In this document: positions 6,290 through 18,992 of the stretch, piece after piece
Layout: each line of letters opens with the position of its first letter
Position numbering within the stretch: position 1 is the first letter of the stretch
Origin: Acidobacteriota bacterium
GTDB lineage: Bacteria > Acidobacteriota > Aminicenantia > Aminicenantales > Saccharicenantaceae
Assembly: GCA_014894455.1 (NCBI GenBank)
Contig: JADBLN010000029.1
Span: 1 to 36,921 of the forward strand
Direction: 5' to 3'
Length of the DNA stretch: 36,921 bases
Made by a program: the position numbers and the translations under genes
Notes under the pieces: model-generated
What the model was told of the DNA's origin: nothing
Seen by the model: only the letters and a program-made list of their open reading frames with translations
The model's database searches: none

Positions 6290-6320
6290 TCCCAGAGGGG
6301 CTGCCCCCGGGGGACTGTCC

Positions 6321-6396
6321 GGCAGGGAACGAAGTCCTCGAAGTGACCGATAAAAGTGCGGCGGAGATACTCGGAGTCGCACTTTTAGGAAATATC
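6321..6396 (+). repeat. 76-bp palindromic repeat, copy A
   Basis: One of three 76-bp copies in the window (others 8859-8934 and 14586-14661, both on the opposite strand). It differs from the reverse complement of copy B at only 3 positions. Its core is a stem-loop, AAAAGTGCG pairing with CGCACTTTT around a 17-nt loop. It lies between the Spy-like gene and its probable terminator, so it would be part of that mRNA's 3' region. Confidence 0.85.
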
Positions 6397-6427
6397 CTAA
6401 TTAATATAGTACTTAGCCTAAAGAAAT

Positions 6428-6468
6428 GAGGACATGTACCGGAGGTATATGTCCTCTTTCTTCTTCTC
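6428..6468 (+). terminator. Strong intrinsic terminator
   Basis: GAGGACATGTACC (6428-6440) pairs with GGTATATGTCCTC (6444-6456): 13 bp with one G-T wobble and a GGA triloop, followed by TTTCTTCTTCT. It closes the transcript of the Spy-like gene and repeat copy A and insulates the sigma-54 promoter downstream. Confidence 0.85.
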
Positions 6469-6528
6469 CTTTGTTCCTCCTGTCCTTTTCATAGGACGCA
6501 CGGCCTTTCCTCCCTGGGAGAGCCCGAC

Positions 6529-6544
6529 TGGCACGATAGTTGCT
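6529..6544 (+). promoter_or_regulatory. Sigma-54 (RpoN) -24/-12 promoter
   Basis: TGGCACG-ATAG-TTGCT matches the sigma-54 consensus TGGCACG-N4-TTGCW at every position. The invariant GG (6530-6531) and GC (6542-6543) are separated by exactly 10 nt. The start of transcription would be near 6555, leaving a leader of only about 17 nt that contains GGAAGGAG before ATG 6572. A sigma-54 promoter requires an AAA+ enhancer-binding activator, which is not in this window. Confidence 0.85.
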
Positions 6545-6571
6545 TAAGATAAGGTCGGAAGGAGAAAGACG

Positions 6572-8740
6572 ATGAGAAAACTCTCAATACTCGCCATCGC
6601 GATCATCGTTTCCATCCCCCTCGGCCTCATGGCCCAGGACGAAGGATTCTACCCCTACAGCTATGCCCGCCTGAGCTACGTCAACGGTGCGGTCTTTGTC
6701 CAGAGGACGGCTGATTTGGGCTATGAAAAGGGCGAAGTGAACCTCGCCCTCGTCCAGGGCGACAAGATGGGGACCGAAGCCGGCCAGGCCGAGGTCCACT
6801 TCGGCCGCCGCAACTACCTCCGCCTCGCCGACAACACCAAGGTGGAATTCGCGATCCTTCCCCAGGAAGGGGACGAGCGCATCCAGATCCATATCACCGA
6901 AGGAAGCGCCTACCTCAGGGTGAGCTATCTCGCCGCTGACAAAGGCATCGAGGTCCATACCCCCGACGCATCATTCTACGTTCTCGAAGAAGGGCTCTAC
7001 AGGTTCGACGTAAGACTGGACCGGGAAACCGAGGTCTTCGTCCGCGAGGGCAGCCTGGAGGCGGCCGGCGAGGACGGCTCGGTCATGGTCCGGGAGAAAG
7101 AGACCCTGACGGCCTCCGATGGCCGTCTCTCCGGCGACCCGGAATATTTCTATTCCCGCGACGACAACTTCGACGACTGGAACGGTTCCCGGGACATCCA
7201 GCTCTCCCAGCGGAGCGAACGGCAGAACCTCCCCTCCGACCTCGAAGAATATGAAGAAGAGCTCGACCAGAATGGCCAATGGGTCTACGAGCGGCCCTAC
7301 GGCAACGTCTGGGTGCCCAACGTTTCCTACGCCGACTGGCGGCCCTACCTCTACGGCCGCTGGGTCTGGTATCCCGTCATTGGCTGGAACTGGGTCTCCT
7401 CCGAGTCTTGGGGCTGGTCCGTCTACCACTACGGCCGCTGGCATTGGCGCTTCGGCCTCGGCTGGTACTGGATCCCCCAGAATCATTGGGGGCCGGCCTG
7501 GGTGCATTGGTGGTCGGACAACAGCTACATCGGCTGGTGCCCCCTCAGCTGGTACAACCGGCCCGTCGTCATCGTCGGCAATCACTTCTACGATAGGGAT
7601 TACGGCCGCGATTTCTCCGCCCATAACCGGGCCCTGTCCGTCATCCGCCGCGACCACCTCCAGTCTCCCGACATCGCCCGGCGCCAGGTCGGGTCCGGCG
7701 AACGCGACCGCATCGACAGGGTGGCCCTCAAGGCCGATCAGCCCAGGATCCGGCCGGCCGTGGATAACGCCCGGCCCCAGGCCGTCGAGGCCAAGCGGGC
7801 GCTGGCGGTCCGGTCCGGCAGCCGCAGCGCCGTGAAGTCTTTGCCACCGGCTAATTCCGTATCCTCCTCGCGTCTGCGGCAGGGCGCGGTTTCGCAGGGC
7901 GCCCGGACGAGAGACCGCGGCGCGTCCGTGTCCGACCCGAACCGGAACGCCGTTTCGCGGCCGGCCATCAAGGATCCCGAAACGGGCAGCCGGGTCATCC
8001 GGTCCTACCCGAGCCAGAAGGTCTCCGGGAACCGCAATGAGAACGGCGCTTCCGAGAACCGCCGGGCCGGCGTCGCCGCGCCGGTCCGCCGGAGCGGATC
8101 CGAGGCCAAGAAAAATCCCTCCCGGGTCGCCCCTTCACAAAAGCAGGTTTCGGCCTCTCCCAAGTCCGAATCCAAGCAGGACCAGCAGAAAGCCAAGAAG
8201 AACGAAAACGAATCCAAGGGCGCCGTCATCAAGAAAGGGGAGACTATCAAGAAATACTCGTCGAGCGCACGGTCTGAATCCGGGGCCACGAGCTCGCGGA
8301 GGTCGACGTCGGGGAGCCGGACGTACTCTTCGGACCCGCGGACCTACGCCGGCTCGCCGAGCCGCTCTTCACAGTCCTCCGCCGGCCGGTCTCAGGCTCC
8401 CTCCCTTTCTTCAAGGCCGGCGGCCTCGCGGCCAGCCCCGCGTCTGAGCAGCCCGTCGTACTCGACCCCTCGCTCGTCCTCCGCCCGGACGAGCTCCCCG
8501 TCCTACTCCCGCTCCAGATCTGTCCGCTCCTCCTCGGCATCACCCTCCTATTCTCAGCCCCGGAGCTCCTATTCCTCCCCCTCCCGCTCGAGCGGTTCCT
8601 CTTCCGGACGCTCCTCGAGCGTGGCCAGGTCGGGCGGATCTTCCTCAGGCCGCTCTTCTTCGTCAGGCCGGTCGAGCTCCTCTTCCGGAGGCTCCTCGAG
8701 CTCTTCGTCCAAGTCCGGCGGCGTTAGAAAGAAGGGTTGA
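6572..8740 (+). CDS. Large secreted FecR-like / DUF6600-type protein with Trp-rich core and Ser/Arg-rich tail
   Basis: 722 residues. Seen: signal peptide (about 1-21, ending GLMAQ); an N-terminal FecR-like beta domain (about 25-190; 'ARLSYVNGAVFVQR', 'GDKMGTEAGQAEVHFGRRNYLRLADNTKVEF', 'FYVLEEGLYRFDV'); a remarkable Trp-rich block (about 231-340) with 19 Trp in about 105 residues, in short W-x-W and GRW repeats that fit the DUF6600 family; then a long basic, low-complexity tail (about 390-722) that becomes almost pure Ser/Arg/Gly/Pro after about 560 and ends KSGGVRKKG. No membrane anchor is visible. The start is fixed by GGAAGGAG and by the sigma-54 promoter just upstream. Function unknown; a surface or periplasmic structural protein made under an environmental signal is a reasonable inference. 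Confidence 0.8.
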   Translation: MRKLSILAIAIIVSIPLGLMAQDEGFYPYSYARLSYVNGAVFVQRTADLGYEKGEVNLALVQGDKMGTEAGQAEVHFGRRNYLRLADNTKVEFAILPQEGDERIQIHITEGSAYLRVSYLAADKGIEVHTPDASFYVLEEGLYRFDVRLDRETEVFVREGSLEAAGEDGSVMVREKETLTASDGRLSGDPEYFYSRDDNFDDWNGSRDIQLSQRSERQNLPSDLEEYEEELDQNGQWVYERPYGNVWVPNVSYADWRPYLYGRWVWYPVIGWNWVSSESWGWSVYHYGRWHWRFGLGWYWIPQNHWGPAWVHWWSDNSYIGWCPLSWYNRPVVIVGNHFYDRDYGRDFSAHNRALSVIRRDHLQSPDIARRQVGSGERDRIDRVALKADQPRIRPAVDNARPQAVEAKRALAVRSGSRSAVKSLPPANSVSSSRLRQGAVSQGARTRDRGASVSDPNRNAVSRPAIKDPETGSRVIRSYPSQKVSGNRNENGASENRRAGVAAPVRRSGSEAKKNPSRVAPSQKQVSASPKSESKQDQQKAKKNENESKGAVIKKGETIKKYSSSARSESGATSSRRSTSGSRTYSSDPRTYAGSPSRSSQSSAGRSQAPSLSSRPAASRPAPRLSSPSYSTPRSSSARTSSPSYSRSRSVRSSSASPSYSQPRSSYSSPSRSSGSSSGRSSSVARSGGSSSGRSSSSGRSSSSSGGSSSSSSKSGGVRKKG

Positions 8741-8858
8741 CCGAATCCGGCTTGGCTTTGTTTCGTACGTCCACTCTCTTTTCCCCCCTCTTCCTTTAAA
8801 TTTAATTACGGGGCCGAGGGGATCGTCGGAGGGGCAGCTAAGCATAAAGCTCCATTCA

Positions 8859-8934
8859 GATATTTCCTAAAAGTGCGACTCCGAGCATCTCCGCCGCACT
8901 TTTATCGGTCACTTCGAAGACTCCGTTCCCTGCC
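8859..8934 (-). repeat. 76-bp palindromic repeat, copy B
   Basis: Inverted relative to copy A and 73/76 identical to it, so A and B flank the sigma-54-driven gene as an imperfect inverted pair. The copy is preceded on the plus strand by ATTCA, as is copy C, suggesting the unit may extend 5 bp further. Confidence 0.85.
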
Positions 8935-8958
8935 GATCCCCGAGGCCCCATTTTTTTC

Positions 8959-8987
8959 TTTACTTTTGTAGGCCGCGGTGGTATAAA
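8959..8987 (+). promoter_or_regulatory. Probable sigma-70 promoter for the lipoprotein gene
   Basis: TTTACT (8959-8964), 17-bp spacer, TATAAA (8982-8987). Expected start near 8994, leader about 89 nt. Confidence 0.5.
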
Positions 8988-9082
8988 CTTATCCTCGTTC
9001 GGGAATTGATTTCCCGGCGCGATAAAACCGCCTATCCGGCCCGCGGGGATGGACGATCGTTCGACACATGGAGGTGCTTCCG

Positions 9083-9790
9083 ATGAGTTCAGCGAAAAAA
9101 AACGGCATTTTCCTCTTGAGTCTGGCCGTGCTCGTCGCCCTGGGCGGCGGCGTGGCCTGTCAGAAGAAAGCGGCCGAAGGACAGGTCGCCGAGGTCCAGA
9201 AGGCGGTCAACGAGTTCGACGGAACGGTCCGGGCGGCCTTGGGCCGGTACATGTACCTTTCGACGGCCCAGGGGTTCGACATCGTCCTGCCCGGCTTCGA
9301 CGCGGCAACGCTCGTGGGCAAGACCGTCAAGATCAAGGGCAACCTGCTCGTCGACCATCCCCCGGTTTTCCTGGCCGATAGCGTTGAACTTAAGGACGCG
9401 TCGGGCGCCGGTTCGAACGTCTACACGCGAAGCCAGGAGTTCCAGCCGGAGGATTTCGTCGAATTCAAGTCCCGGGAAGCCGTCCCGGCCCTAACCATCA
9501 CCGGCGTCGCCAAGCCCGAGGAGTGGGAGGGCAAGGCGCAAGGCAAGGTTTACGGGAAGCTCCAGAAGGGCGACGTGACCTATATCGTCCTCTCCGACGA
9601 CAAGGGTAAGGAAACGGCCAAGATCATCGTCGACTCCGTCACCGCATACTCCAACTATTACCTGAACAAACTGAAGCTCTTCGACAAGTTCTGGTTCTAC
9701 GTGAACGTCAAGGACAGCGTCGACAAGAAGATCCGTCCGAAGACCAAGGAGATCTTCCACGCCGACGTCATCGGCGCCGGCCTTTTCTGA
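9083..9790 (+). CDS. Putative lipoprotein of unknown function
   Basis: 235 residues. Seen: lipoprotein signal (KKNGIFLLSLAVLVALGGGVAC, split here only as a description: basic start, hydrophobic run, lipobox Cys after GGGVA), then a Lys/Glu-rich helix (QKKAAEGQVAEVQKAVNEF) and a beta-rich region with a 'LVGKTVKIKGNLLVDHPPVFLADSV' type strand pattern reminiscent of an OB-like or tRNA_anti-like fold, which I cannot confirm. No catalytic motif recognised. Start 9083 is preferred over ATG 9068 because the ribosome site GGAGGT (9070-9075) sits between them at a correct distance from 9083. A strong terminator follows at 9814-9844. Confidence 0.75.
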   Translation: MSSAKKNGIFLLSLAVLVALGGGVACQKKAAEGQVAEVQKAVNEFDGTVRAALGRYMYLSTAQGFDIVLPGFDAATLVGKTVKIKGNLLVDHPPVFLADSVELKDASGAGSNVYTRSQEFQPEDFVEFKSREAVPALTITGVAKPEEWEGKAQGKVYGKLQKGDVTYIVLSDDKGKETAKIIVDSVTAYSNYYLNKLKLFDKFWFYVNVKDSVDKKIRPKTKEIFHADVIGAGLF

Positions 9791-9813
9791 GTTTTCTTAA
9801 AGCGAGAAACCAG

Positions 9814-9844
9814 GGACGGCTCTTCGGGGCCGTCCTTTTTTTTT
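9814..9844 (+). terminator. Intrinsic terminator after the lipoprotein gene
   Basis: GGACGGC (9814-9820), 8-nt loop, GCCGTCC (9829-9835), then nine T (9836-9844). The T-run reaches into the stop codon of the convergent pgi gene; there is no T-tract on the opposite side, so it acts mainly on plus-strand transcripts. Confidence 0.92.
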
Positions 9845-11556
9845 CAGCCCAACAAGGACGTCAGTTCCCTGAGCCCCGCCTCGACCGGGCCTTCGATCTC
9901 GACCCTCAGGACGCGGCGGCCCTTGTCCGCGAGGGCCATCCCGTCTCCCCGCCCTTGAGCCGCGAAAAGGTCGGCGAATGTCGCGGCGGGACGCTCGACA
10001 CCCGGGACGGCGGGGATGGGGACGTCAGGCATGTCCGCCTCGGTCAGCATCAGGAAGAGGCCCATATTTCCGTCCCCCTTGTGAAGCTGTCCGGTCGAAT
10101 GGAGGTAGCGCGGCCCGAACCCGAGCGTGACGGGTAGGCGATGCTTCCGCCGGAGGACGCTCGCCAGCCCGGCCAGAAGCGTCTCGACTCCCTCTCGCGG
10201 CGGGAGAAAAGCCAGCACGGCGATATAATCCCCCTCGCGGGAAGCCCCCAAAAAGCGGGCCAACGTCTCCCCGGCGCTTTTCGAACGGCCCGGCCCGGCT
10301 ATCGTCAGGACTTCGGCGTCAAGGGATTGGCCCGCCGGAGCGGCACCTCCCGCCCGTCCGGAACCGGCCAGGATGTCTTTCGTTTTCTTTTTCGTCGATT
10401 CGACGTCCGGCTGGTCGAAAGGATTGATCTTCAGGCAATGAGCGGCGACGGCCGTGGCGAATTCCCATAGGAAAAAATGCCCGGCCAGAGAATATGGGTC
10501 CTCGAGCGTCAGCCGGACAAGCGGCGCCCCGGCGTCGATGAGCGCGCGGACACCCCCGTCGCGCCCCGGGGCTCCGGCGTCGGGAAGTTCGACGAAAAGG
10601 CGGTCCTTTCCGTAGCTTGCGGGGGATCCCGGAACGTCCTCGATGACGGGCACGATGCCCTTGCCCTCTTTGCCCGTGCTTTCGGCGATGAGTTGCTCGA
10701 GCCAGCCGGCGAGCGGCCTGAGCGGCGGCGGGACGAAGAAGGTCAGCTTGTCGATGCCACTCGCCGCAGCGGTACCCAGGATCGCCCCGAGCCGGGCCCC
10801 CGGGTTTTCGTCCGGCGTTTCGACGCGGCACGCGTCGGCGACGGTCCGGCTCGAGAGAAGCAGGCGCCTCAGGTCGATTCCCTTGAGGGCCGCAGGCAAC
10901 AGGCCGAATGCCGAGAGGGCGGAGAACCGCCCGCCGATATCTGGCCGGCCGGAAAACGTCCCCCGGAAGCGGAGCGATTTGGCCAGGGCCTCGAGCGGGG
11001 TCCCCGGGTCGGTGACGGCGACGAACCGGCCGCCGGCGCGGGCGTCCCCGAGTTCACGGCGGGCCCGGTCGTAGAAAAAGGAGAAGAGGGCGACGAGTTC
11101 CGCGGTCGTCCCCGACTTCGAAGAGACGACGAACAGGGTTCTTCCGGGATCGAGGCGCTCGGCCGCCGCGGCCACGGTTCCCGGCTCGGTCGTGTCCAGG
11201 ACTTCGAGCTCGAGCGCGCCGTCCCCCGTCCCGAAAGCGCGGGCGAAGACCTCCGGGGCGAGGCTCGAGCCGCCCATGCCCAGGACGACGGCCCGGGTCA
11301 ATCCTTCGCCGCGGAGGGAGGCCGCGAAAGCTTCCAGCGCGGGGACCTCGTCTTCGGCCGATCGGGGAGACGAGAGCCAGCCCAGCCGGTTCGAGATTTC
11401 CCTGTCCTCGGTCTTCCAGACCGTCGCGTCCCGGCCCCAGATCCGACGGACGACCCGGTCTTTTTCGAGGCCGCGCAGGCTCCGGTCGAGCTCCGGAGCC
11501 AGGCGCTCCGGGTTGAAAAACCTAAAATGGCGGCTGTCATCGTCCATGGGATCCAT
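9844..11556 (-). CDS. pgi: Glucose-6-phosphate isomerase
   Basis: Interconverts glucose 6-phosphate and fructose 6-phosphate in the cytosol (glycolysis, gluconeogenesis). 570 residues. Seen: GMGGSSLA at 93-100 and SSKSGTT at 145-151 (phosphosugar-binding SIS loops), 'AESTGKEGKGI' with the catalytic Glu region, and 'GPRYLHSTGQLHKG' near the C-terminus. These match the divergent PGI form that is often fused to transaldolase in other bacteria; here no transaldolase part is attached or adjacent. The start is ATG 11556 or ATG 11547; the ribosome site AAGGAAGGG fits either. Convergent with the lipoprotein gene, divergent from the MFS gene. Confidence 0.9.
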   Translation of the reverse strand: MDPMDDDSRHFRFFNPERLAPELDRSLRGLEKDRVVRRIWGRDATVWKTEDREISNRLGWLSSPRSAEDEVPALEAFAASLRGEGLTRAVVLGMGGSSLAPEVFARAFGTGDGALELEVLDTTEPGTVAAAAERLDPGRTLFVVSSKSGTTAELVALFSFFYDRARRELGDARAGGRFVAVTDPGTPLEALAKSLRFRGTFSGRPDIGGRFSALSAFGLLPAALKGIDLRRLLLSSRTVADACRVETPDENPGARLGAILGTAAASGIDKLTFFVPPPLRPLAGWLEQLIAESTGKEGKGIVPVIEDVPGSPASYGKDRLFVELPDAGAPGRDGGVRALIDAGAPLVRLTLEDPYSLAGHFFLWEFATAVAAHCLKINPFDQPDVESTKKKTKDILAGSGRAGGAAPAGQSLDAEVLTIAGPGRSKSAGETLARFLGASREGDYIAVLAFLPPREGVETLLAGLASVLRRKHRLPVTLGFGPRYLHSTGQLHKGDGNMGLFLMLTEADMPDVPIPAVPGVERPAATFADLFAAQGRGDGMALADKGRRVLRVEIEGPVEAGLRELTSLLG

Positions 11557-11682
11557 CCCTTCCTTTAGGGAGGATTATATCAGGACCCCGGGGATCGGAT
11601 AAAGAGGCTTGATTATTTTCCCCGGATTCCGGAAGATAGAGCCTCGAATGACCGGATCACCAGGAGATTGGAGGGTCTTTTC

Positions 11683-13017
11683 ATGACAAACGCCGATACT
11701 GCAGCGCCGGTCGGCTTCTTCCACCCGACCAAGCCGATCTACCGGTTCACGAACCTTTTATTCATTTCCTCTCTGACTTTCGGAAGCTACTTTGCCTACG
11801 ACATCATCGGGGCCATCGCGCCGTCGCTCATCGGCGAGCTCAAGGCGTCCCGCGCGACCGTCGGCACGATGAACACGATGTACAGCATCGCCGCCATCCT
11901 GGTGCTGCTTTTTGCGGGGATGCTCATCGACAGGCTTGGGACTCGGAAGGCGAGCATCATCTTCTCTATCCTCGTCTTCATCGGCGCCTTGGTCGTCTGG
12001 CAGGCCAAGACCATTCCCTTGATGTTCCTCGGCCGGTTCATCTTCGGGGCTGGCGCCGAGCCCCTCGTCGTCGCCCAGAGCGCCATGCTGGCCCGCTGGT
12101 TCAAGAAGAAAGAGCTGGCGCTTTCCTTCGGCGTGGCCCTGACCGTAAGTCGCCTGGGGTCGCTCTTCGCCTTCAATAATGGCGAGCTCATCACGAAGTA
12201 TTTCGGCAGTTTCCGAAACGCCCTGCTGGCCGCAGTCGGCGCCTGCGCCCTGTCCCTCATCGGCAACCTTTGCTACTTCGTCATGGACAAGCGGGGCGAG
12301 AAAGCCCTCAACCTCCGCGAGGAGAGCGCCGGCGACAAGATCGTCTTCAAAGATATCAAGGAGTTCAAGCCGACCTTCTGGTACGTCACCGCGCTCTGCT
12401 TCACGTTCTACGCGGCCATCTTCCCCTTCCAGAGCCTGTCGACGGACTTCTTCGCCACCAAGTGGGGCATCGCCCTGACGGCGCCGGCCTCGGGCAGCTT
12501 CCTGGCCCAGGTCTTCAACAACTTCCGCCACATCTTCAGCACCGCCGGCGGCATCACCAGCATCATCATCTTCGCCTCGATGCTCCTCGCTCCGTTCGCC
12601 GGTCGGCTTGTGGATCGAGTGGGAAAGAGGACGACGTTCATGATCGCCGGTTCTCTCCTCCTCATCCCCTGCCATCTGGCCATGGGTCTGACGAACATCT
12701 ACCCGGTTTACCCGATGATCCTCCTCGGCTTCGCCTTTGTCCTCGTCCCGGCGGCCCTGTGGCCGTCCGTTCCGCTCATTGTCAAGTCGAACCGGGTCGG
12801 GACGGCCTTCGGACTGATGACCGCCATCCAGAATATCGGCCTGGGGCTCTTCCCGCTGCTCAACGGGTTGTTGCGCGATCGAACGGGTTCTTACGTCGCC
12901 AGCCAGACCATGTTCGCCAGCCTGGGCGTCATCGGCCTCGTCTTCGCCCTTCTCCTCAAGCGGGCCGACCGCCGGGAAGGCCAGGGCCTGGAGACCCCTC
13001 AGAAAGCCAAGGCCTGA
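11683..13017 (+). CDS. MFS transporter, MFSD1-like
   Basis: 444 residues with 12 predicted membrane helices. Seen: the MFS loop signature after helix 2 (AGMLIDRLGTRKAS) and its counterpart in the second half (AGRLVDRVGKRTT), and the block 'LARWFKKKELALSFGVALTVSRLGS', which I recognise from the MFSD1 group and its bacterial relatives. Eukaryotic MFSD1 is reported as a lysosomal dipeptide carrier; whether that substrate holds here is inference. ATG 11683 was chosen because GGAGG (11670-11674) lies 8 bases before it; the frame also opens at TTG 11668. Gene stands alone; no partner gene suggests the substrate. Confidence 0.85.
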   Translation: MTNADTAAPVGFFHPTKPIYRFTNLLFISSLTFGSYFAYDIIGAIAPSLIGELKASRATVGTMNTMYSIAAILVLLFAGMLIDRLGTRKASIIFSILVFIGALVVWQAKTIPLMFLGRFIFGAGAEPLVVAQSAMLARWFKKKELALSFGVALTVSRLGSLFAFNNGELITKYFGSFRNALLAAVGACALSLIGNLCYFVMDKRGEKALNLREESAGDKIVFKDIKEFKPTFWYVTALCFTFYAAIFPFQSLSTDFFATKWGIALTAPASGSFLAQVFNNFRHIFSTAGGITSIIIFASMLLAPFAGRLVDRVGKRTTFMIAGSLLLIPCHLAMGLTNIYPVYPMILLGFAFVLVPAALWPSVPLIVKSNRVGTAFGLMTAIQNIGLGLFPLLNGLLRDRTGSYVASQTMFASLGVIGLVFALLLKRADRREGQGLETPQKAKA

Positions 13018-13186
13018 GGTCGGTTCGTCTAAAATCCGAAGAGCGCATGACTATCCGCTCTCGTCCAGTTGTGTTTTTCCGATAGGCGCCTGGAGGCCGT
13101 TCGCCCGGCCGGGCCCGGTACCCATGAGAAATCCCAGAAGGGTTGGCCGTCCTCTCAATGGGGAGCCCAATGGAAATTAATCACGC

Positions 13187-13251
13187 GGTAAAGCCAACTA
13201 AAGTTAACTAAAATTAAATAAATATTGACAAAGTTTAATGTTGGCTTTACC
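13187..13251. promoter_or_regulatory. Inverted-repeat operator of the toxin-antitoxin genes
   Basis: A 12-bp perfect inverted repeat: GGTAAAGCCAAC (13187-13198) and GTTGGCTTTACC (13240-13251), 41 bp apart, with AT-rich DNA and repeated AACTAAA-like units between. The right arm overlaps the -10 box. Autorepression by antitoxin or toxin-antitoxin complex is known for RelBE-type systems; that these arms are the operator is inference. Confidence 0.65.
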
Positions 13252-13253
13252 AT
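13225..13253 (+). promoter_or_regulatory. Promoter of the toxin-antitoxin operon
   Basis: Perfect -35 TTGACA (13225-13230), 17-bp spacer, -10 TACCAT (13248-13253). The ATG of the antitoxin is only 9 nt further on, so the mRNA would be nearly leaderless. Confidence 0.65.
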
Positions 13254-13262
13254 GGGAGCAGG

Positions 13263-13496
13263 ATGAAAGACCAAAAAGCCACCCTGGCCGTTAAGGTAAA
13301 TTATGATGTCGTCGAGCGGGTCAAGCATTTTTGCCGGGAGAGGGGTTTGAAATACGGCTTTTTCGTCGAGAAAGCGGTCCTCGAACTACTCGCCCGGGAG
13401 GAACTTAAGGAAGACCTGGTGGACCTGAAGGACCTCCGCGAGTTGGAGCGTTTGGCCGTTCCCCTCGACGGCTACCTCAAAAAGCGCCGTGTATGA
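13263..13496 (+). CDS. Antitoxin of a RelBE-type system (RHH-like)
   Basis: 77 residues. Seen: an N-terminal beta strand followed by two helices (ATLAVKVNYDVVERVKHF... GLKYGFFVEKAVLELL), which fits a ribbon-helix-helix DNA-binding domain, then an acidic C-terminal region (EELKEDLVDLKDLRELE) expected to wrap the toxin. Its last 8 bases overlap the toxin start, giving the antitoxin-first coupled order typical of type II systems. It is preceded by an AT-rich promoter/operator region strikingly unlike its GC-rich surroundings, a common sign of horizontal acquisition. Confidence 0.8.
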   Translation: MKDQKATLAVKVNYDVVERVKHFCRERGLKYGFFVEKAVLELLAREELKEDLVDLKDLRELERLAVPLDGYLKKRRV

Positions 13497-13740
13497 CCTC
13501 TTCGTTCTTCCCCCGGCGCAAAAGGACCTCGACAAGCTCGAGGCTTCGGCCTTCGAACGTATCCTCAAGAAAATCCGCGCCCTGTCCAAGGACGCTCGTC
13601 CGCCTGGATGTCTGAAGTTAACGGGGGATGACGGCTATCGTATCCGAGCCGGAGATTATCGCGTTCTCTATCGGGTCGACGAGGCTGCGAAGCGGATCTA
13701 CATCTACAGGATCAAGCATCGAAAAGACGTCTATTCTTGA
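13489..13740 (+). CDS. RelE/ParE-superfamily toxin
   Basis: 83 residues. In type II systems RelE-like toxins are usually ribosome-dependent mRNA interferases. Seen: 'FVLPPAQKDLDKLEASAFERILKKIRAL', 'GCLKLTGDDGYRIRAGDYRVLYRVDEAAKRIYIYRIKHRKDVY': the family's helical N-terminus and the beta-sheet with GDYRVLYRVD and C-terminal basic HRKDVY, where catalytic basic residues normally lie. GTG start at 13489 inside the antitoxin's last codons; no better start is in frame. Activity is not provable from sequence, but no defect is visible. Confidence 0.88.
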   Translation: MYDLFVLPPAQKDLDKLEASAFERILKKIRALSKDARPPGCLKLTGDDGYRIRAGDYRVLYRVDEAAKRIYIYRIKHRKDVYS

Positions 13741-13804
13741 CCCCTGCGGATCATGTCCTTAGGAATCCAATAGAGCTTGGTTCCCTTCGAACCTGGCCCG
13801 CCGT

Positions 13805-13833
13805 TTGCCCCGGTGGCGGATTTCTGCTATAAA
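13805..13833 (+). promoter_or_regulatory. Promoter of the HAD hydrolase gene (leaderless geometry)
   Basis: TTGCCC (13805-13810), 17-bp spacer, TATAAA (13828-13833), then 8 nt to the ATG at 13842. Transcription would begin at or next to the start codon, and no Shine-Dalgarno is present. Confidence 0.55.
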
Positions 13834-13841
13834 GTCCCTCC

Positions 13842-14450
13842 ATGATCCGCACCGTTATTTCCGACCTGGGCCGCGTCGTTCTCTGGTTCGACAACGCCAT
13901 CTTCTTGCGCAAACTGGCCGATGGGGCGGGAAAACCGTTCGAGGACGTCAAGGCGGCCGTCCACGGCGACCTCGAGCTCCTCCGCCGCTTCGACGCCGGG
14001 GCCGTGACCCCGTGCGCGTTTTTCGAAAGAGTCACGGGGCTGGTCGGCGCGGACATCTCCTACGAAGCCTTCTTCGAGATGTACAACGACATCTTCTCGC
14101 TGAACGCGCCTGCGGTCGACTTACTCGCCAGTGTCAAGGCGGCCGGCTGCAAGACTCTGCTCCTTTCGAACACCGACCCGGAGCGCTTCGCTTTCGTCCG
14201 GCGCCGCTTCCCCGAGGTCCTGTTCTTCGACCACTACGTCCTGTCCTACGAGCTCAAGCTGCTCAAGCCCGACCCGGCTATCTACCTCGCGGCAGCCCGT
14301 TTGGCGGACACTTCGCCGCGGGAGTGCGTCTTCATCGACGACATGGAGGAGAATGTCAAGGGCGCCGTCGATGCGGGGCTCGTCGGCATTCACTATATGC
14401 CGACGACCGACCTCGCCGCGGAGCTCAAGAAACTCGGCCTGCGCTTTTAG
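13842..14450 (+). CDS. HAD-superfamily hydrolase (YihX-like, HAD-IA)
   Basis: 202 residues. HAD phosphatases use an N-terminal Asp nucleophile. Seen: motif I VISDLGRVVL (Asp 8; the D-L-G form, rather than DxD, is usual in the YihX/epoxide-hydrolase-like branch), motif II LLLSNTD (about 107-113), motif III Lys in ELKLLKPDPAIY, and motif IV VFIDDMEENVKGA. The family branch includes sugar-phosphate phosphatases, but the substrate cannot be fixed. It is a single gene with a probable leaderless promoter, convergent with yjbQ. Confidence 0.85.
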   Translation: MIRTVISDLGRVVLWFDNAIFLRKLADGAGKPFEDVKAAVHGDLELLRRFDAGAVTPCAFFERVTGLVGADISYEAFFEMYNDIFSLNAPAVDLLASVKAAGCKTLLLSNTDPERFAFVRRRFPEVLFFDHYVLSYELKLLKPDPAIYLAAARLADTSPRECVFIDDMEENVKGAVDAGLVGIHYMPTTDLAAELKKLGLRF

Positions 14451-14793
14451 AGGGCCATCCGTCGCCGGAATGCGGCGATGAGGCCACCCTTATCCCCCGG
14501 GCCCCCGGGAACCAGTCCCGGCGGTCGGCCAGGGAATCTTCAATATCACGAATCTTCTGAGACCTGATAACCAAGACTCGATTCAGATATTTCCCAGAAG
14601 TGCGGCTCCGTGCCGCTCCGCCGCACTTCTGATGGTCGCTTCTCAGAATCCGCTCCCTGCCGCCCCGCCGCTACGGGGGCTTGCGGGCGGCCATCATCAC
14701 CGCCCGACGGCGGATTCATCTCGAATTACGCCGTCTCCGCCAATTTTCACGCGCGGCTTCGAGATTCCCCGACTCGGAATCCGACTAGCGGGC
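14451..14793. other. Intergenic region between convergent HAD and yjbQ genes
   Basis: No gene seen. It contains two short hairpins (TCGCCG/CGGCGA around 14460-14477 and CCGGGA/TCCCGG around 14505-14522) and repeat copy C (14586-14661). No T-rich intrinsic terminator is evident. Confidence 0.6.
14586..14661 (-). repeat. 76-bp palindromic repeat, copy C (diverged)
   Basis: Same length and ends as copies A and B (GATATTTCC ... CCCTGCC on the plus strand), same orientation as B and also preceded by ATTCA. It has diverged at roughly 15 positions, yet the stem is preserved: AGAAGTGCGGC pairs with GCCGCACTTCT, where an A-T pair of A/B has become G-C on both sides and a G-T wobble has become G-C. 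That covariation points to selection on the folded form. Confidence 0.8.
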
Positions 14794-15430: not shown

Positions 15431-17503
15431 ATGGTCAGCACGGTCGGCAGGATCAAGAAGAGAGACGGCACAGTCGCGGACTTCGACCAGGAGAAGATCA
15501 CCAACGCCATCTTCAAGGCGATGCAGACCCAGGGCATCAAGGACCGGACGATCGCCAAGACCGCCTGCGACATCGTCTGCTTCATGATCGAGGAGAAGTT
15601 CGCCGGTTACACCGTCCCGTCCGTCGAGCAGATTCAGGACGTCGTCGAGATGGTCCTTATGAAGCAGGGCTACCACGAGGTCGCCAAGACCTACATCCTC
15701 TACCGGGAGAAGCACAAGGGCATCCGCGAGGCCAAGAAGATCGGGCTCAACCTCGAGCGGTTGGTCAAGGACTACCTCAGCAACGCCGACTGGAAGATCC
15801 GGGAGAACTCGAACGAAGGTGTCATGAGCTTCGCCGGCCTCAACGCCCGCGTTTCCGGCGAGGTCCTGTCGAATTTCGCCCTCAACCAGATCTACTCCGA
15901 GCGGGCCAAGAAGGCCCACGAAGAAGGCGACTTCCACATCCACGACCTGAGCTACCCCATCGTCGGCTATTGCGCCGGCTGGTCGCTCGAGACCCTCATC
16001 CGCAAGGGCTTCGGCCACGTCCCCAACCAGGTCCATTCCAACCCGGCCAAGCACCTCGACACCCTGACCCTCCACATGGTCAACTACATCGGGACGATGC
16101 AGGCCGAGTTCGCCGGCGCCCAGGCCTTCTCGAGCGTCGACACCTTCCTCGCGCCCTTCGTTCGCCACGACCGTCTCAGCTATGAAGACGTCAAGCAGGA
16201 CATGCAGAAGCTCATCTTCGGCCTCAACGTCCCCTGCCGCTGGGGCTGGCAGACCCCATTCTCCAACCTGACCTTCGACTGGACGATCCCCGAGGACATG
16301 AAGAATAAGCGTGCAGTCGTCGGCGGCGAGGAGCTCGACACCTGCTACGGCGACTACCAGAAGGAGGTCGACTGGATCAACCGGGCCTTCCTCGAGATCA
16401 TGATCGAGGGCGACCTCAAGGGCCGGGTCTTCACCTTCCCCATCCCGACCTACAACCTCAGCCGCGAGTTCGACTGGGATTCCCCCAAGGCCAAGCTCCT
16501 CTTCGACGCCACGGCCAAGTACGGCATCCCTTACTTCCAGAACTACATCGGGACGAACATGAACCCGGGCGACATCCGGGCCATGTGCTGCCGGCTCAAC
16601 CTCGACCAGCGCGAGCTCATGCGCCGGCCGGGGAGCATCTGGGGCCCGGGCGATTCGACGGGGTCCGTCGGTGTCGTCACGGTCAACCTCAACCGGGTCG
16701 CCTTCGAGGCCACGTCCAAAGACGACTATTTCGCCCGCCTCAAGGAGCTCATGACCATCGCCAAGGAGACGCTCGAAACCAAGCGCGAGATCGTCAACAA
16801 CATGCTGGCCAAGGGCATGATGCCCTACACCAAGGTCTACCTCGGCCACTTCGACAACCACTTCTCGACGATCGGCATTTGCGGCATGCACGAGGCCTGC
16901 ATGAACTTCCTGAAGAAGGGCATCGGCACCCCCGAAGGCCGCGATTTCGCCGTCGAGACGCTCAACTTCATGCGCGGCGTCCTGCGTGAATTCCAGGAGG
17001 AGACGGGCAACCTCTATAACCTCGAGGCGACGCCGGCGGAATCCACGGCCTACCGCCTGGCCCGGCTCGACAGGCAGAAATACCCCCGGATCCACACGTC
17101 GGGCACGGAGAAATACCCCTATCTCACCAACTCCACCCAGCTCAACGTCGATGCCACCCGGGACATCTTCGAAGCCATCCAGCACCAGGGGGAGATCCAG
17201 CCGCTCTACACCGGCGGGACGATCTTCCACGCCTTCCTGCCCGAGGCCATCGACGGCGAGACCTGCAAGAAGCTTGTCCAGAGGATCGCCCAGACGAAGC
17301 TGCCGTACTTCTCCATCACCCCGACGTTCAGCGTCTGTATGAACCACGGCTACATCCGCGGCCGGCACTCCCAGTGCCCGGAGTGCGGCGACGAGACCGA
17401 GGTCTACAGCCGCATCGTCGGCTACATGAGGCCGGTCCGGACCTGGAACGACGGCAAACAGCAGGAGTTCAAGGACCGGACGCCCTACAACAAGATCGCT
17501 TGA
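15431..17503 (+). CDS. nrdD: Anaerobic (class III) ribonucleoside-triphosphate reductase
   Basis: Reduces NTPs to dNTPs without oxygen, using a glycyl radical. 690 residues. Seen: N-terminal ATP-cone regulatory domain (about 3-95; VGRIKKRDGTVADFDQEKI); core with 'SFAGLNARVSGEVLSNFALN', 'FHIHDLSYPIVGYCAGWSLETL'; the catalytic Cys-containing 'MCCRLNLD'; a C-terminal zinc region with CPECG (C649, C652, plus C636); and the glycyl radical loop SRIVGYMRP with Gly 664. All key elements are present. AAGGAGG precedes ATG 15431 by 6 bases. Followed 33 bp later by a redoxin gene and nrdG, with NrdR boxes upstream. Confidence 0.96.
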   Translation: MVSTVGRIKKRDGTVADFDQEKITNAIFKAMQTQGIKDRTIAKTACDIVCFMIEEKFAGYTVPSVEQIQDVVEMVLMKQGYHEVAKTYILYREKHKGIREAKKIGLNLERLVKDYLSNADWKIRENSNEGVMSFAGLNARVSGEVLSNFALNQIYSERAKKAHEEGDFHIHDLSYPIVGYCAGWSLETLIRKGFGHVPNQVHSNPAKHLDTLTLHMVNYIGTMQAEFAGAQAFSSVDTFLAPFVRHDRLSYEDVKQDMQKLIFGLNVPCRWGWQTPFSNLTFDWTIPEDMKNKRAVVGGEELDTCYGDYQKEVDWINRAFLEIMIEGDLKGRVFTFPIPTYNLSREFDWDSPKAKLLFDATAKYGIPYFQNYIGTNMNPGDIRAMCCRLNLDQRELMRRPGSIWGPGDSTGSVGVVTVNLNRVAFEATSKDDYFARLKELMTIAKETLETKREIVNNMLAKGMMPYTKVYLGHFDNHFSTIGICGMHEACMNFLKKGIGTPEGRDFAVETLNFMRGVLREFQEETGNLYNLEATPAESTAYRLARLDRQKYPRIHTSGTEKYPYLTNSTQLNVDATRDIFEAIQHQGEIQPLYTGGTIFHAFLPEAIDGETCKKLVQRIAQTKLPYFSITPTFSVCMNHGYIRGRHSQCPECGDETEVYSRIVGYMRPVRTWNDGKQQEFKDRTPYNKIA

Positions 17504-17536
17504 GTCCCGGCATATTTCACGAGAGGCGGAAACGTC

Positions 17537-17803
17537 ATGGATTACCTGCTTTTTACCTATCCCAGCTGCGGCAAGTGCGAGGCGCTGAAGAAGAGGCTCG
17601 CCGAAACCGAGACTCCGTACGCCGCGTACAGCCTGACCGAGCGCTCGGGCAAGGCCAAGATCCGCGAGTTCATCAACGTCATCAAGAGGGACGACAAGGG
17701 CGCGATCATCCTCCCGACCCTCGTCGCCCACACCCAGGGCATTGTCCGGGCCGTGATCAACTCGGCGGAGGAGTTCGACGGGTGGTCGAAATCAAAGGGA
17801 TAG
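17537..17803 (+). CDS. Glutaredoxin/NrdH-like redoxin
   Basis: 88 residues, thioredoxin-fold size of NrdH/glutaredoxin-like proteins. Seen: 'LLFTYPSCGKCEALKKRL' with redox pair C11-x-x-C14 and, after an unusually basic middle (KRDDKGAIILPTLVAHTQG), a cis-Pro (LPT) typical of the fold. Lying between nrdD and nrdG, it may supply electrons to the reductase or to its activase; some class III enzymes use thioredoxin or glutaredoxin rather than formate (known), which this placement suggests here (inference). Its 3' end overlaps nrdG by 22 bp. Confidence 0.82.
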   Translation: MDYLLFTYPSCGKCEALKKRLAETETPYAAYSLTERSGKAKIREFINVIKRDDKGAIILPTLVAHTQGIVRAVINSAEEFDGWSKSKG

Positions 17804-18480
17804 AGAAGTTCTCGAGCCGGGACTTCCCCGGCCATATTTCCTCGACGGTCTTCCTCGGCGGCTGTACCTTCCGCTGCCCTTACTGCCACAACGCGGACCT
17901 CGTGCTGAGGCCGGAGACGATCCAGACGATGCCCGTCGACATCTTCCTGTCCTATCTCGACGGCCGCAAAGGCTGGCTGGAGGCGGTCTGCCTCACGGGC
18001 GGAGAACCCCTCCTCCACGAGGACGTCGAGGACATCATCCGTGTCGTCCGGGAGCGGGGCCTCCTGGTCAAGCTGGACACCAACGGCTCCTTTCCGGAGC
18101 GCCTGGAGGGGCTTCTCGCCGCCGGGCTCCTCGACTGGGTGGCCATGGACGTCAAGGCCCCCCTCGAGCGCTACCGCGAGGTGACCCGCTCGAACGTGGA
18201 CGTCGAGCGGGTCGTCAGGAGTGCGGACATCCTCCGGACCTCCGGCATCCGGCACACCTTCCGGACGACGGTCGTCCCGGGGTTCGTGGGGAAAGAGGAC
18301 GTGGTCAAGATCGGCGAGTGGCTCGATGGAGCAGCGAACTACCTCATCCAGCAATTCGTGCCCCAAACGACGATCGACCCGGCCTTCCTCGCTATCAAAC
18401 CATTCGGCCGAGCCGAGCTCGCGGAGATCGTCGCCGCGGCCAAGCCGTACTTCCAGGATGTCCGGATCGAGGCCCCGTAA
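17782..18480 (+). CDS. nrdG: Anaerobic ribonucleotide reductase activating protein (radical SAM)
   Basis: Radical SAM activase that installs the glycyl radical on NrdD. 232 residues. Seen: GCTFRCPYCHN with the [4Fe-4S] Cys motif CxxxCxxC at 28-35, the SAM-binding LTGGEPLL, and 'LDTNGSFPE' and 'WVAMDVKAPLERY'. The frame is open further upstream, but GTG 17782 is the right start: GGAGGAG (17767-17773) lies 8 bases before it and homology begins at VEIKGIEKFSS. It overlaps the redoxin gene, so translation is coupled. Its stop codon lies in the left arm of an 18-bp perfect hairpin. Confidence 0.94.
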   Translation: MVEIKGIEKFSSRDFPGHISSTVFLGGCTFRCPYCHNADLVLRPETIQTMPVDIFLSYLDGRKGWLEAVCLTGGEPLLHEDVEDIIRVVRERGLLVKLDTNGSFPERLEGLLAAGLLDWVAMDVKAPLERYREVTRSNVDVERVVRSADILRTSGIRHTFRTTVVPGFVGKEDVVKIGEWLDGAANYLIQQFVPQTTIDPAFLAIKPFGRAELAEIVAAAKPYFQDVRIEAP

Positions 18481-18569: not shown

Positions 18570-18992
18570 ATGATTCTTAAGGTCAAGCGTATCCACCCTG
18601 AGGCCAAGCTCCCCGTCTACGGTCACCCCGGCGACGCCGGGCTGGATCTTTTTTCGATCATCGATCGCGAGCTCCGCCCCGGCGAGGTCTTCGCCGTCCC
18701 GACGGGCATCCAGGTGGCCGTCCCGGCCGGCCATGTGGGACTCGTCTGGGATAAGAGCGGCATTTCGCTCCAGGGCGTCCATCGCCTGGCCGGCGTCGTC
18801 GACTCCGGCTACCGGGGTGAGATCCAGGTCGTCATGATCAACCTGGGCGCCGCTCCGTTCGCGGTCAGGAAGGGCATGAAGATCGCCCAGATGCTCGTCC
18901 AACCGGTGGCCGCCGTCTCCGTCGTCGAGTGCGAAGCACTCGATGGCACCTCGCGCGGCCAGGGCGGCTTCGGCTCGACCGGGCTCTACTGA
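18570..18992 (+). CDS. dut: Deoxyuridine 5'-triphosphate nucleotidohydrolase (dUTPase)
   Basis: Hydrolyses dUTP to dUMP, keeping uracil out of DNA and feeding thymidylate synthesis. 140 residues, usual trimeric-dUTPase size. Five motifs in order: HPGDAGLDLFS (1), WDKSGIS (2; the common form is RSG, here KSG), GVVDSGYRGEIQVVMIN (3, with catalytic Asp), RKGMKIAQMLVQP (4), RGQGGFGSTG (5). The Arg-to-Lys change in motif 2 is unusual but conservative. GAAGGAG lies about 10 bases upstream. Placed directly behind nrdG, it makes a dNTP-supply cluster. Confidence 0.92.
   Translation: MILKVKRIHPEAKLPVYGHPGDAGLDLFSIIDRELRPGEVFAVPTGIQVAVPAGHVGLVWDKSGISLQGVHRLAGVVDSGYRGEIQVVMINLGAAPFAVRKGMKIAQMLVQPVAAVSVVECEALDGTSRGQGGFGSTGLY

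Follow-up and report, generated by a model that had tools for sequence, protein, structure and literature searches.

The window analysed here, a stretch of 36,921 nucleotides, carries three palindromic repeats of 76 bp with equal length and ends, at 6321-6396 (+), 8859-8934 (-) and 14586-14661 (-), here called copies A, B and C, and it raises the question of what these repeats are and how they are multiplied. An earlier note on this DNA had left the choice between a palindromic element mobilised in trans and a family of structured RNAs. Re-reading the sequence confirmed the three positions and the 3 mismatches between A and B over 76 bases, while the divergence of "roughly 15" given for copy C agrees with its 15 mismatches to B but is too low for its 18 mismatches to A. 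As was also described, A (+) and B (-) face each other on either side of a sigma-54-controlled gene (ORF 6572-8740), with a sigma-54-like TGGCAC-N5-TTGC at 6529, and a Pfam scan of the 30 mechanical ORFs of the window found no flanking transposase. Based on the findings below, we propose that A, B and C are probably solo arms of a multi-copy, non-coding and non-autonomous mobile family in one Candidatus Aminicenantes genus.

The conserved unit starts 1 base earlier than the 76-mers (CGG), ends beyond them and comprises two hairpins rather than one, so that each copy is an arm in which hairpin 1 keeps G.A mismatches and hairpin 2 forms a 12-bp covarying stem. The features of the three copies and their surroundings are as follows.

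6320-6401, + strand: copy A, solo arm (blastn and covariance model; model match 6318-6406), absent at the syntenic site of the relative G004
6325-6348, + strand: hairpin 1 of copy A, GG-GA-AC...GT-GA-CC, with conserved G.A/A.G mismatches (alignment columns 8-31)
6351-6387, + strand: hairpin 2 of copy A, 12-bp covarying stem with a GAG/CTC cap (alignment columns 34-70)
6388-6396, + strand: conserved tail of copy A, GGAAATATC (alignment columns 71-79)
6428-6456, no strand assigned: GAGGACATGTACCGGAGGTATATGTCCTC palindrome 3' of copy A, of a type found near some genes for REP-associated tyrosine transposases (RAYTs) in relatives
8810-8824, + strand: left end, GGGGCCGAGGGGATC, of an inverted repeat around copy B (sequence and G004 comparison)
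8859-8935, - strand: copy B, solo arm (blastn and covariance model), absent in G004; hairpin 1 at 8907-8930, hairpin 2 at 8868-8904, tail at 8859-8867
8935-8949, - strand: right-hand end of the copy B inverted repeat, reading GGGGCCTCGGGGATC on this strand (sequence and G004 comparison)
14586-14662, - strand: copy C, solo arm (blastn and covariance model); hairpin 1 at 14634-14657, hairpin 2 at 14595-14631, tail at 14586-14594

The family is abundant. In the own genome (G000, 2.95 Mb, 96% complete), blastn with copy A returned 27 rows, of which 19 are near-full copies (E <= 1e-8) and 8 are short (E 0.11-2.55). A covariance model built from those 19 copies gave 55 rows; 51 places at E <= 1.6e-6 were kept, and a reverse-strand echo (1.2e-4), a contig-end partial (0.005) and two short reverse-strand rows (0.02 and 0.06) were dropped. 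The contig-end partial match contains the hairpin-1 core. Several contigs of this genome have an end no more than about 0.3 kb from an arm, where a gap could hide a transposase. The model matched in all 13 genomes of the genus, with 2-106 matches at E <= 0.01 in each of the 12 relatives, all Candidatus Aminicenantes MAGs, and all 23 stretches picked out by a hairpin pattern likewise came from Candidatus Aminicenantes MAGs. Outside the genus, weak model matches occurred in 5 of 27 genomes (L070, L071, L072, L073 and L074); that of L070 was rejected as falling within a release-factor domain and that of L073 as poor, and L071, L072 and L074 have the hairpin-1 core in common with the arms. Plasmids gave no match to copy A and phages none to copy C, and although viral contigs gave 29 pattern matches, the model scored 24 rows there at just 14.9-22.3 bits, which were taken as chance.

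The central stem had been described as kept through paired changes, and this held in the larger sample. Among the 19 own-genome copies, aligned by sequence only and read against their own consensus fold plus one hand-added pair, 94.7% of cells pair, compared with 86.6% with shuffled partners (0/500 as high), and 9 of 21 pairs are changed on both sides against a shuffled mean of 4.7 (0/500 as high); another of the five measures, further pair types, was no better than shuffled (15 vs 14.9; 307/500). Across 72 distinct arms, in an alignment fitted to the model, 96.0% of cells are paired against 85.9% when shuffled, and the covariation score is 0.321 against 0.133 shuffled and at most 0.090 slid. 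An excess of G-U over A-C (29 vs 8) appears only when pair 50-56 is left out, the two being about equal with its 19 A-C cells. Folding as RNA gave z-scores of -1.4 to -2.7 for the three 76-mers but just -0.6 to -0.7 with their flanks, and the DNA folds of the 76-mers resemble the RNA folds. Neither outcome that would have spoken against a selected or mobile element, the lack of further copies or of stem covariation, was found.

The copies also differ in position between close relatives. The window blocks are 79-97% identical to G004 (long blocks 90-97%), and both flanks aligned within the 1.21 Mb of that genome compared at 17 distinct syntenic sites (from 19 rows, of which three form a single array; at C115:77263, where the left flank match lies at a distance of 1.1 kb, synteny was judged from the bases closer by). 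Only one of these sites (C116) has an orthologous arm; at 2 the arm is a different one in other surroundings, 14 have none, and A, B and C are all absent at their syntenic G004 sites. In a further relative, G011, the 160 and 168 bp of the window that contain A and most of B correspond to 25 and 8 bp. Since orthologous arms are missing at 16 of the 17 sites in G004, and A and most or all of B in G011, recent insertion is the simplest reading of the three copies. At several of the missing sites the genomes differ by a replacement of 25-50 bp rather than a clean insertion, and thus the arm boundaries are inexact. In the comparison with G004, A, B and C show no terminal inverted repeats of their own and no clear target repeats.

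Arms occur either solo or as convergent tail-to-tail pairs of about 178-190 bp (43 solo arms vs 4 pairs in the own genome, 17 vs 5 in the compared part of G004), with a cluster of three arms at a 229-bp period on contig C5 and abutting arms of opposite orientation in other species. In the relative G002 such a pair forms the centre of a ~300-bp MITE with inverted ends (15 units aligned, a few without one end), whose terminal inverted repeats (TIRs) of about 30 bp begin GGTTCTTC; the doublet partners in relatives are unlike each other, a strong R arm and a weak L arm. For 28 TIR units from G002 and other relatives, 20 with and 8 without arms and with one left end counted twice, direct repeats of ~8 bp score at the group level above shuffled pairings (0/5000 as high), and strong direct repeats occur in 7 of the 28 vs 4.9% of mismatched pairings, in flanks of 78% A+T. 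No GGTTCTTC-type end was found in the own genome at up to 3 mismatches. Compared with random windows, solo arms of the own lineage adjoin or lie within other small repeat families much more frequently: a GGGGACACGTACC-type palindrome stands within 90 nt on the 3' side of 26 of 60 solo arms, compared with 5 of 60 on the 5' side and 48 of 12000 random windows. The CCCCCGTAGCGG...CCGGGACTGGTTCCCGG repeat around copy C is present in G004 too, but there lacks the arm, and the end type of the inverted repeat around copy B also occurs in 117-283-bp units of G004. A rule that arms always insert in hairpin loops was rejected, because complementarity between the flanks across the arms is weak (273/5000 shuffles as high; 68 of 69 units, one being too short).

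Could the copies instead be a structured RNA family with a function, either processed sRNAs or 3' elements of mRNAs, that multiplied by duplication and was retained for that function? The arms do have covarying helices and conserved purine mismatches and loops, and the hairpin-1 core turns up again, within an element whose hairpins covary, in different families of the order, so the covariation part of this idea stood, while the gene orientation preference and the Rfam match did not. Among 42 resolved solo arms, 13 lie on the same strand as the adjoining genes, 11 on the opposite strand, 10 between convergent and 8 between divergent genes, a count that leaves out 2 solo arms and 1 pair at the ends of contigs, together with 16 solo arms and 1 pair that a crude longest-ORF caller put inside an ORF; with no orientation bias, a cis-acting mRNA element was rejected. 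Rfam gave no match at gathering in the window, with weak rows solely at copy A and at the compact element. Together with the site turnover against so similar a relative as G004 and the pairing of arms in opposite orientation, these results make a structured-RNA origin quite improbable. Quasipalindrome correction is an established mutation process, and the paired changes could also be its by-product, through template switching or gene conversion between stem halves, without selection on the fold and with the copies as decaying debris. Hairpin 2, which changes mostly by full swaps with few G-U steps, fits correction. However, the four purine mismatches of hairpin 1 are kept in 65 (G.A), 70 (A.G), 69 (G.A) and 67 (A.G) of the 72 arms, the last being replaced by G-C in 4, whereas the loop-adjacent pair is freely exchanged (24 C-G, 22 U-A, 18 G-C and 2 A-U of 72). 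Conserved purine mismatches are not what a perfect palindrome would keep, and since correction would erase them, we consider this explanation the least probable of all.

A closer rival takes the arms for unusual REPs that a RAYT mobilises in trans, its gene having since disappeared from the own genome or escaped assembly. REPs are short single palindromes of 20-40 bp with a GTAG or CGTC tag by the hairpin, whereas the arms have 76-89 nt and two hairpins, and neither tag stands next to hairpin 1; the 4 bases before it are GGCA or GGCG, which shifted by one base gives GCAG, one base off GTAG, and single copies have AGCG or CGCA there. Several features agree with such a mover. Y1 transposase genes occur in 10 of the 12 genus relatives, and solo arms often adjoin palindromes of a type also found beside RAYT genes, that of GAGGACATGTACCGGAGGTATATGTCCTC adjoining them in L157, L166 and L167. 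The arms form inverted doublets, as do REPINs (PMC3116915), and the arm hairpin is imperfect with conserved mismatches, a feature that TnpA-REP needs in E. coli (PMC8266576). However, the RAYT that the earlier note proposed to look for did not materialise: the own genome, at 96% completeness, has no Y1 match, and 20 RAYT loci, inspected for about 2 kb each side where the contig allowed, contain no arm at E <= 1 (they derive from 25 genus Y1 matches, the five left out including two high-scoring ones presumed to be of IS200 type, one partial and one contig-end). Many of these RAYTs are accompanied by inverted repeats of their own that differ from the arms, and two relatives without a Y1 match carry arms, with 23 matches in G010 (71% complete) and 15 in G005 (73%). 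A RAYT as the mover therefore seems unlikely. Among other enzymes, ISL3 has no match in the own genome and within the genus matches only in G006 (4 pieces), whose ISL3-family element ends in the same 8 bases, GGTTCTTC, as the G002 MITE. An IS110 bridge-RNA element was rejected, as its recombinase gave no match in the own genome and matched in 1 of 13 genus genomes, and so was a reverse-transcriptase route, with no match in the own genome.

The reading of A, B and C as arms of a mobile, non-autonomous palindromic family thus follows from the copy number, the pairs and MITE form, the single orthologous arm among 17 sites and the absence of the three copies in G004, and the trans-mobilised palindromic element first suggested gains from the MITE-type ends and target repeats in relatives. 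The family appears to have spread recently through genomes of one uncultured bacterial group, alone or inside other small elements. A putative transposase or recombinase acting in trans would recognise the arm as a folded single strand, with hairpin 1 possibly serving as its identity mark by analogy with REPs, and the arms may also ride as passengers of other MITE or REP units.

BOX, ERIC and Correia-type repeats are mosaics of palindromic modules, intergenic and without an enzyme of their own; the arms resemble them in these respects but differ in module composition. MITEs with ISL3-like tips share with the G002 form the TIRs, the group-level direct repeats of ~8 bp in A+T-rich DNA, the short length and the many copies, while the own-genome arms lack those ends and stand in other repeat contexts. 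REPINs and BIMEs are likewise dispersed, high-copy, imperfect hairpins with stem mismatches, occurring as inverted doublets, solo copies and clusters, and are thought to move in trans as single strands; they differ from the arms, which are longer, two-hairpinned and tag-less, are missing from the RAYT loci examined, and in relatives form doublets of dissimilar partners inside a TIR MITE. CGTC-tagged REPs have 8-9-bp stems, 4-5-nt loops and the CGTC tag, in contrast to the two larger, untagged hairpins of the arms; many of the genomes encode tyrosine transposases, yet the repeats are reported to have no dedicated one (PMC3733652). The present family bears on the question posed by those REPs, of how a palindromic repeat spreads without a dedicated transposase (PMC3733652).

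The hairpin-1 core occurs in five families of the order, within a four-hairpin element. We tentatively raise the further idea, which we regard as doubtful, that the modules bearing the core GGCAGGGAGCG(R)...AGCGACC, which occur in five families of the Aminicenantes order, form a lineage that might parasitise other palindromic mobile elements, entering the centres of unrelated MITEs and the neighbourhoods of REP-type palindromes and being carried by their enzymes; the recombinase that moves the module itself, as a folded single strand, would be of an undescribed kind. In the open-access literature searched, with most subscription papers outside its coverage, no such repeat is described for Aminicenantes. 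With this family an uncultured bacterial class gains a well-delimited and apparently active mobile repeat family with insertion polymorphisms between relatives, and the compact order-wide element, the MITE core and the solo arm form a natural series for how palindromic repeats arise, merge and switch carrier. Hairpin 1 of the compact order-wide version has the closing sequence GCGAAGC, known as an extraordinarily stable DNA mini-hairpin, and this closure would fit recognition as DNA rather than RNA.

The coordinates, length and ends claimed for three 76-bp repeats in the window are all confirmed in the sequence:

6321-6396 (+), copy A
8859-8934 (-), copy B
14586-14661 (-), copy C

Over the 76 positions, A and B mismatch at 3, A and C at 18, and B and C at 15. 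The earlier note had called for a genome search with this unit, and the genome of the window (G000; 2,948,251 bases in 125 contigs, 96% complete, the window being the entire contig C100) indeed holds further copies. With copy A as the query, 19 of 27 blastn rows were near-full copies, from which the covariance model R1 was built; R1 gave 55 rows on G000, with 51 matches at E <= 1.6e-6 retained. Of the four rows left out, three are on the reverse strand (an echo and two short rows); the fourth, partial and at the end of a contig, is a real hairpin-1 core according to the core-pattern scan. The repeat probably breaks assemblies, because contigs start or stop in these units, hereafter arms, or within about 0.3 kb of them (C5, C9 and C12 of the genus relative G002; C5, C41, C85, C105, C111 and C114 of G000).

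The arm family is real, mobile, non-autonomous and folded, and the mechanism of its movement is one that we infer. Each arm reads CGGC(A/G), hairpin 1, hairpin 2 and the tail GGAAATATC. Hairpin 1 has the form GG-[GA]-(G/A)C-GGA-N(TCTT)N'-GAA-G(C/T)-[GA]-CC, in which four stem positions keep G.A/A.G mismatches in 65-70 of 72 distinct arms and the loop-adjacent pair varies among C-G, U-A, G-C and A-U, and hairpin 2 is a 12-bp stem capped by GAG/CTC. That the stem is kept by paired changes, as the three copies had suggested, is supported by covariation above shuffled controls in both sets examined. In a sequence-only alignment of the 19 own copies, 94.7% of cells were paired versus 86.6% when shuffled and two-sided changes occurred at 9 of 21 pairs versus 4.7, the count of further pair types being not above shuffled; in the 72 arms, whose alignment, unlike the former, was fitted to the model, the values were 96.0% versus 85.9% and 11 of 20 pairs versus 7.5 (1 of 500 shuffles as high), with a covariation score of 0.321 versus 0.133 shuffled and at most 0.090 slid. 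Single 76-mers have only a moderate folding advantage over shuffles (z -1.4 to -2.7), which nearly disappears when flanks are included (z -0.6 to -0.7), and the DNA folds are alike; therefore, the case for the fold rests on the covariation and the kept mismatches, which a simple palindrome correction would erase. G-U exceeds A-C, 29 versus 8, when the cap pair 50-56 is left out, but this pair has 19 A-C cells and counting it abolishes the excess, which therefore gives no pointer to the strand that folds.

Mobility was read from site comparison, for which the flanks of the 51 own copies, at most 1.3 kb per side, were used to seek the syntenic place in about 1.21 Mb of the relative G004, to which blocks of the window align at 79-97% identity (long blocks 90-97%). 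Among 17 distinct comparable sites, an arm is common to both genomes at one (C116), a different arm in another context stands in G004 at two (C85:31661 and C17:9042), and no arm is present at 14, including A, B and C; at one of these fourteen, C115:77263, the left match lies 1.1 kb off and synteny was read from nearer bases. In the relative G011, 25 and 8 bp replace window stretches of 160 and 168 bp covering A and most of B, so insertion in the lineage of the window is the simplest reading. Several G000/G004 sites look less like clean insertions than like replacements of 25-50 bp, and G004 has another repeat at some of the sites. At C62:6470, an 8-bp direct repeat, TGAACGCG, in two copies 254 bp apart, flanks a composite insertion, and G004 has it once at the matching site. 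The earlier reading of a mobile palindromic element is supported by the 51 own copies and by the lack of an orthologous arm in G004 at 16 of 17 sites.

Solo arms predominate (43 in G000 and 17 in the 1.21 Mb of G004) over convergent pairs (4 and 5, respectively), and one array occurs:

G000 contig C5, 24524-25070, three-arm tandem array with a period of 229 bp and a GGGGACACGTACC palindrome after each arm

In two of the three, this palindrome carries CGGCAGGGAGCG, the first 12 arm bases, in its middle. The pair is common in other species, where dissimilar arms abut at their tails in a stretch of about 178 bp, and in G002 it forms the middle of a unit with inverted ends of about 30 bp beginning GGTTCTTC (15 units aligned, a few without one end). 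Across 28 such units of G002 and other relatives (187-335 bp; 20 contain arms and 8 do not; a single left end was counted twice), whose flanks are A+T-rich (78%), direct repeats beat shuffled pairings in all 5000 trials and were strong in 7 units versus 4.9% of mismatched pairings. Some arm-less units have another palindromic module at the same central place, and others none. With up to 3 mismatches, G002 has 55 occurrences of the GGTTCTTC-type end, and G000, G004, G005 and G010 have none, despite 15-53 arm matches each; therefore, arms in the lineage of the window live without those ends.

A REP-associated tyrosine (Y1) transposase (RAYT), which the earlier note had proposed to look for, is not supported as the source of this mobility: Y1 transposases occur in 10 of 12 genus relatives and had no match in G000, and none of the 20 RAYT loci examined contains an arm. 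Many of these RAYT genes (L151-L170) have their own flanking repeats, long palindromes or inverted repeats (GGGGACACGTACC.., GGGGTCAAACCTAC.., GGGACCTGGTCTTCGC..), which differ from gene to gene, with none seen by eye at L152, L155 and L159. ISL3 elements commonly begin GGCTCTTC and generate 8-bp repeats. Among 13 genus genomes this family occurs in G006 alone, in four pieces; three of these end ...GAAGAACC, matching the MITE tip in all eight bases, with divergent, A-rich DNA beyond it. IS110 and reverse transcriptase were both missing from G000, being present in 1 and 3 of the 13 genus genomes. An own-genome enzyme for the arms could sit in assembly gaps.

The family works like REPIN/BIME or MITE systems, REPINs being described in PMC3116915. 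It departs from REPs in three defining features, size, tag and cognate RAYT, and only the G002 form has the hallmarks of a MITE. According to PMC8266576, TnpA-REP in E. coli depends on the mismatches conserved in REP stems, and REP recognition involves one strand; hairpin 1 offers a parallel. Like the arms, CGTC REPs are without a dedicated transposase, as reported in PMC3733652, and REPs are insertion targets in the account of PMC1525189. The arm family is a variant among palindromic miniature elements, and no description of it was found in the open-access literature searched.

A scan for hairpin 1 and the beginning of hairpin 2, with each bacterial and archaeal species represented by one genome, found 23 stretches, all in MAGs titled Candidatus Aminicenantes. 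In 40 genomes (G000, its 12 genus relatives and 27 others of the order), R1 matched 13 of 13 genus genomes, with 2-106 matches in each of the 12 relatives at E <= 0.01, and 5 of the 27 others, all weakly; one of these five sits in a release-factor domain and was rejected, another was set aside as a poor match, and the remaining three have the exact hairpin-1 core. Copy A had no match among plasmids and copy C none among phages. More deeply, the pattern GGCAGGGAGCGR-N(0-12)-AGCGACC occurs in 20 of the 142 genomes scanned in the class (reversed control, one match in total), namely 11 of the 13 genus genomes and 9 from other genera (families f1, f2, f4, f6 and f7). At 22 loci, comprising those outside the genus and four in G005 and G010, hairpin 1 has a minimal loop and the sequence GGGAGCG(A/G)AGCGACC; GCGAAGC is known as an extraordinarily stable DNA mini-hairpin from work cited in PMC10527192. 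Twelve of these loci were aligned, and the eight chosen for their complete left part fold into four hairpins, the last two of which are taken to be arm hairpins 1 and 2; two-sided changes occur at 8 of 35 predicted pairs, seven of them in the two left hairpins. Ten proteins scanned beside six minimal-loop loci are ordinary cell genes or unknown. At L346-L349, L351 and L361-L367, an intergenic element of about 135 nt with up to four hairpins, found in five families of the order, has the invariant core GGCAGGGAGCGRAGCGACC and resembles window arms in hairpin order and fold, and is itself a candidate structured element.

Arms also keep company with other repeats. Of the 60 solo arms that have 90 nt of sequence to either side, 26 are followed (3') and 5 preceded (5') by half of a GGGGACACGTACC-type palindrome, versus 48 of 12,000 random 90-nt windows, a contrast with intergenic DNA that is overstated because random windows include coding DNA; against the same background, the GGGGCC..GGGG end of a separate repeat lies 5' of 11 and 3' of 5 (random 45), and CCCCCGTAGCGGAGGGGG lies 5' of 9 and 3' of none (random 9). 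GGGGACACGTACC-type palindromes also adjoin RAYT genes at L157, L166 and L167. That arms as a rule lie inside hairpin loops is weakly supported by flank complementarity (273 of 5000 shuffles as high); striking single cases include copy B, enclosed by GGGGCC...GGCCCC, and a C106 arm, enclosed by GGGGTCAAACCTA...TAGGTTTGACCCC. In G004 (L225, L235, L236, L267, L280 and L284), a separate repeat with GGGCC(T/G)(C/A)GGGG..TCGTC ends measures 117-140 bp, or 243-283 bp where it encloses an arm or a pair; two units of 200 bp contain a different insert.

No preferred strand emerges for neighbouring genes from crude ORF calls (among 42 resolved solo arms, 13 same, 11 opposite, 10 convergent and 8 divergent). 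At L033 and L035 (own C89 and C18; arm 1501-1589), arm insertion would have altered the protein C-terminus, because the upstream ORF, crudely called, seems to stop at the TAA of the arm, GACCGATAAAAG. Three consecutive genes of the window are:

15431-17503, anaerobic ribonucleoside-triphosphate reductase with ATP-cone
17374-18480, radical SAM protein, after the reductase
18570-18992, dUTPase-like ORF, after the radical SAM protein

A sigma-54-like TGGCAC-N5-TTGC at 6529-6543, readable also at the corresponding G004 site, precedes a DUF6600 ORF (6572-8740), and copy A is positioned between it and the upstream gene.
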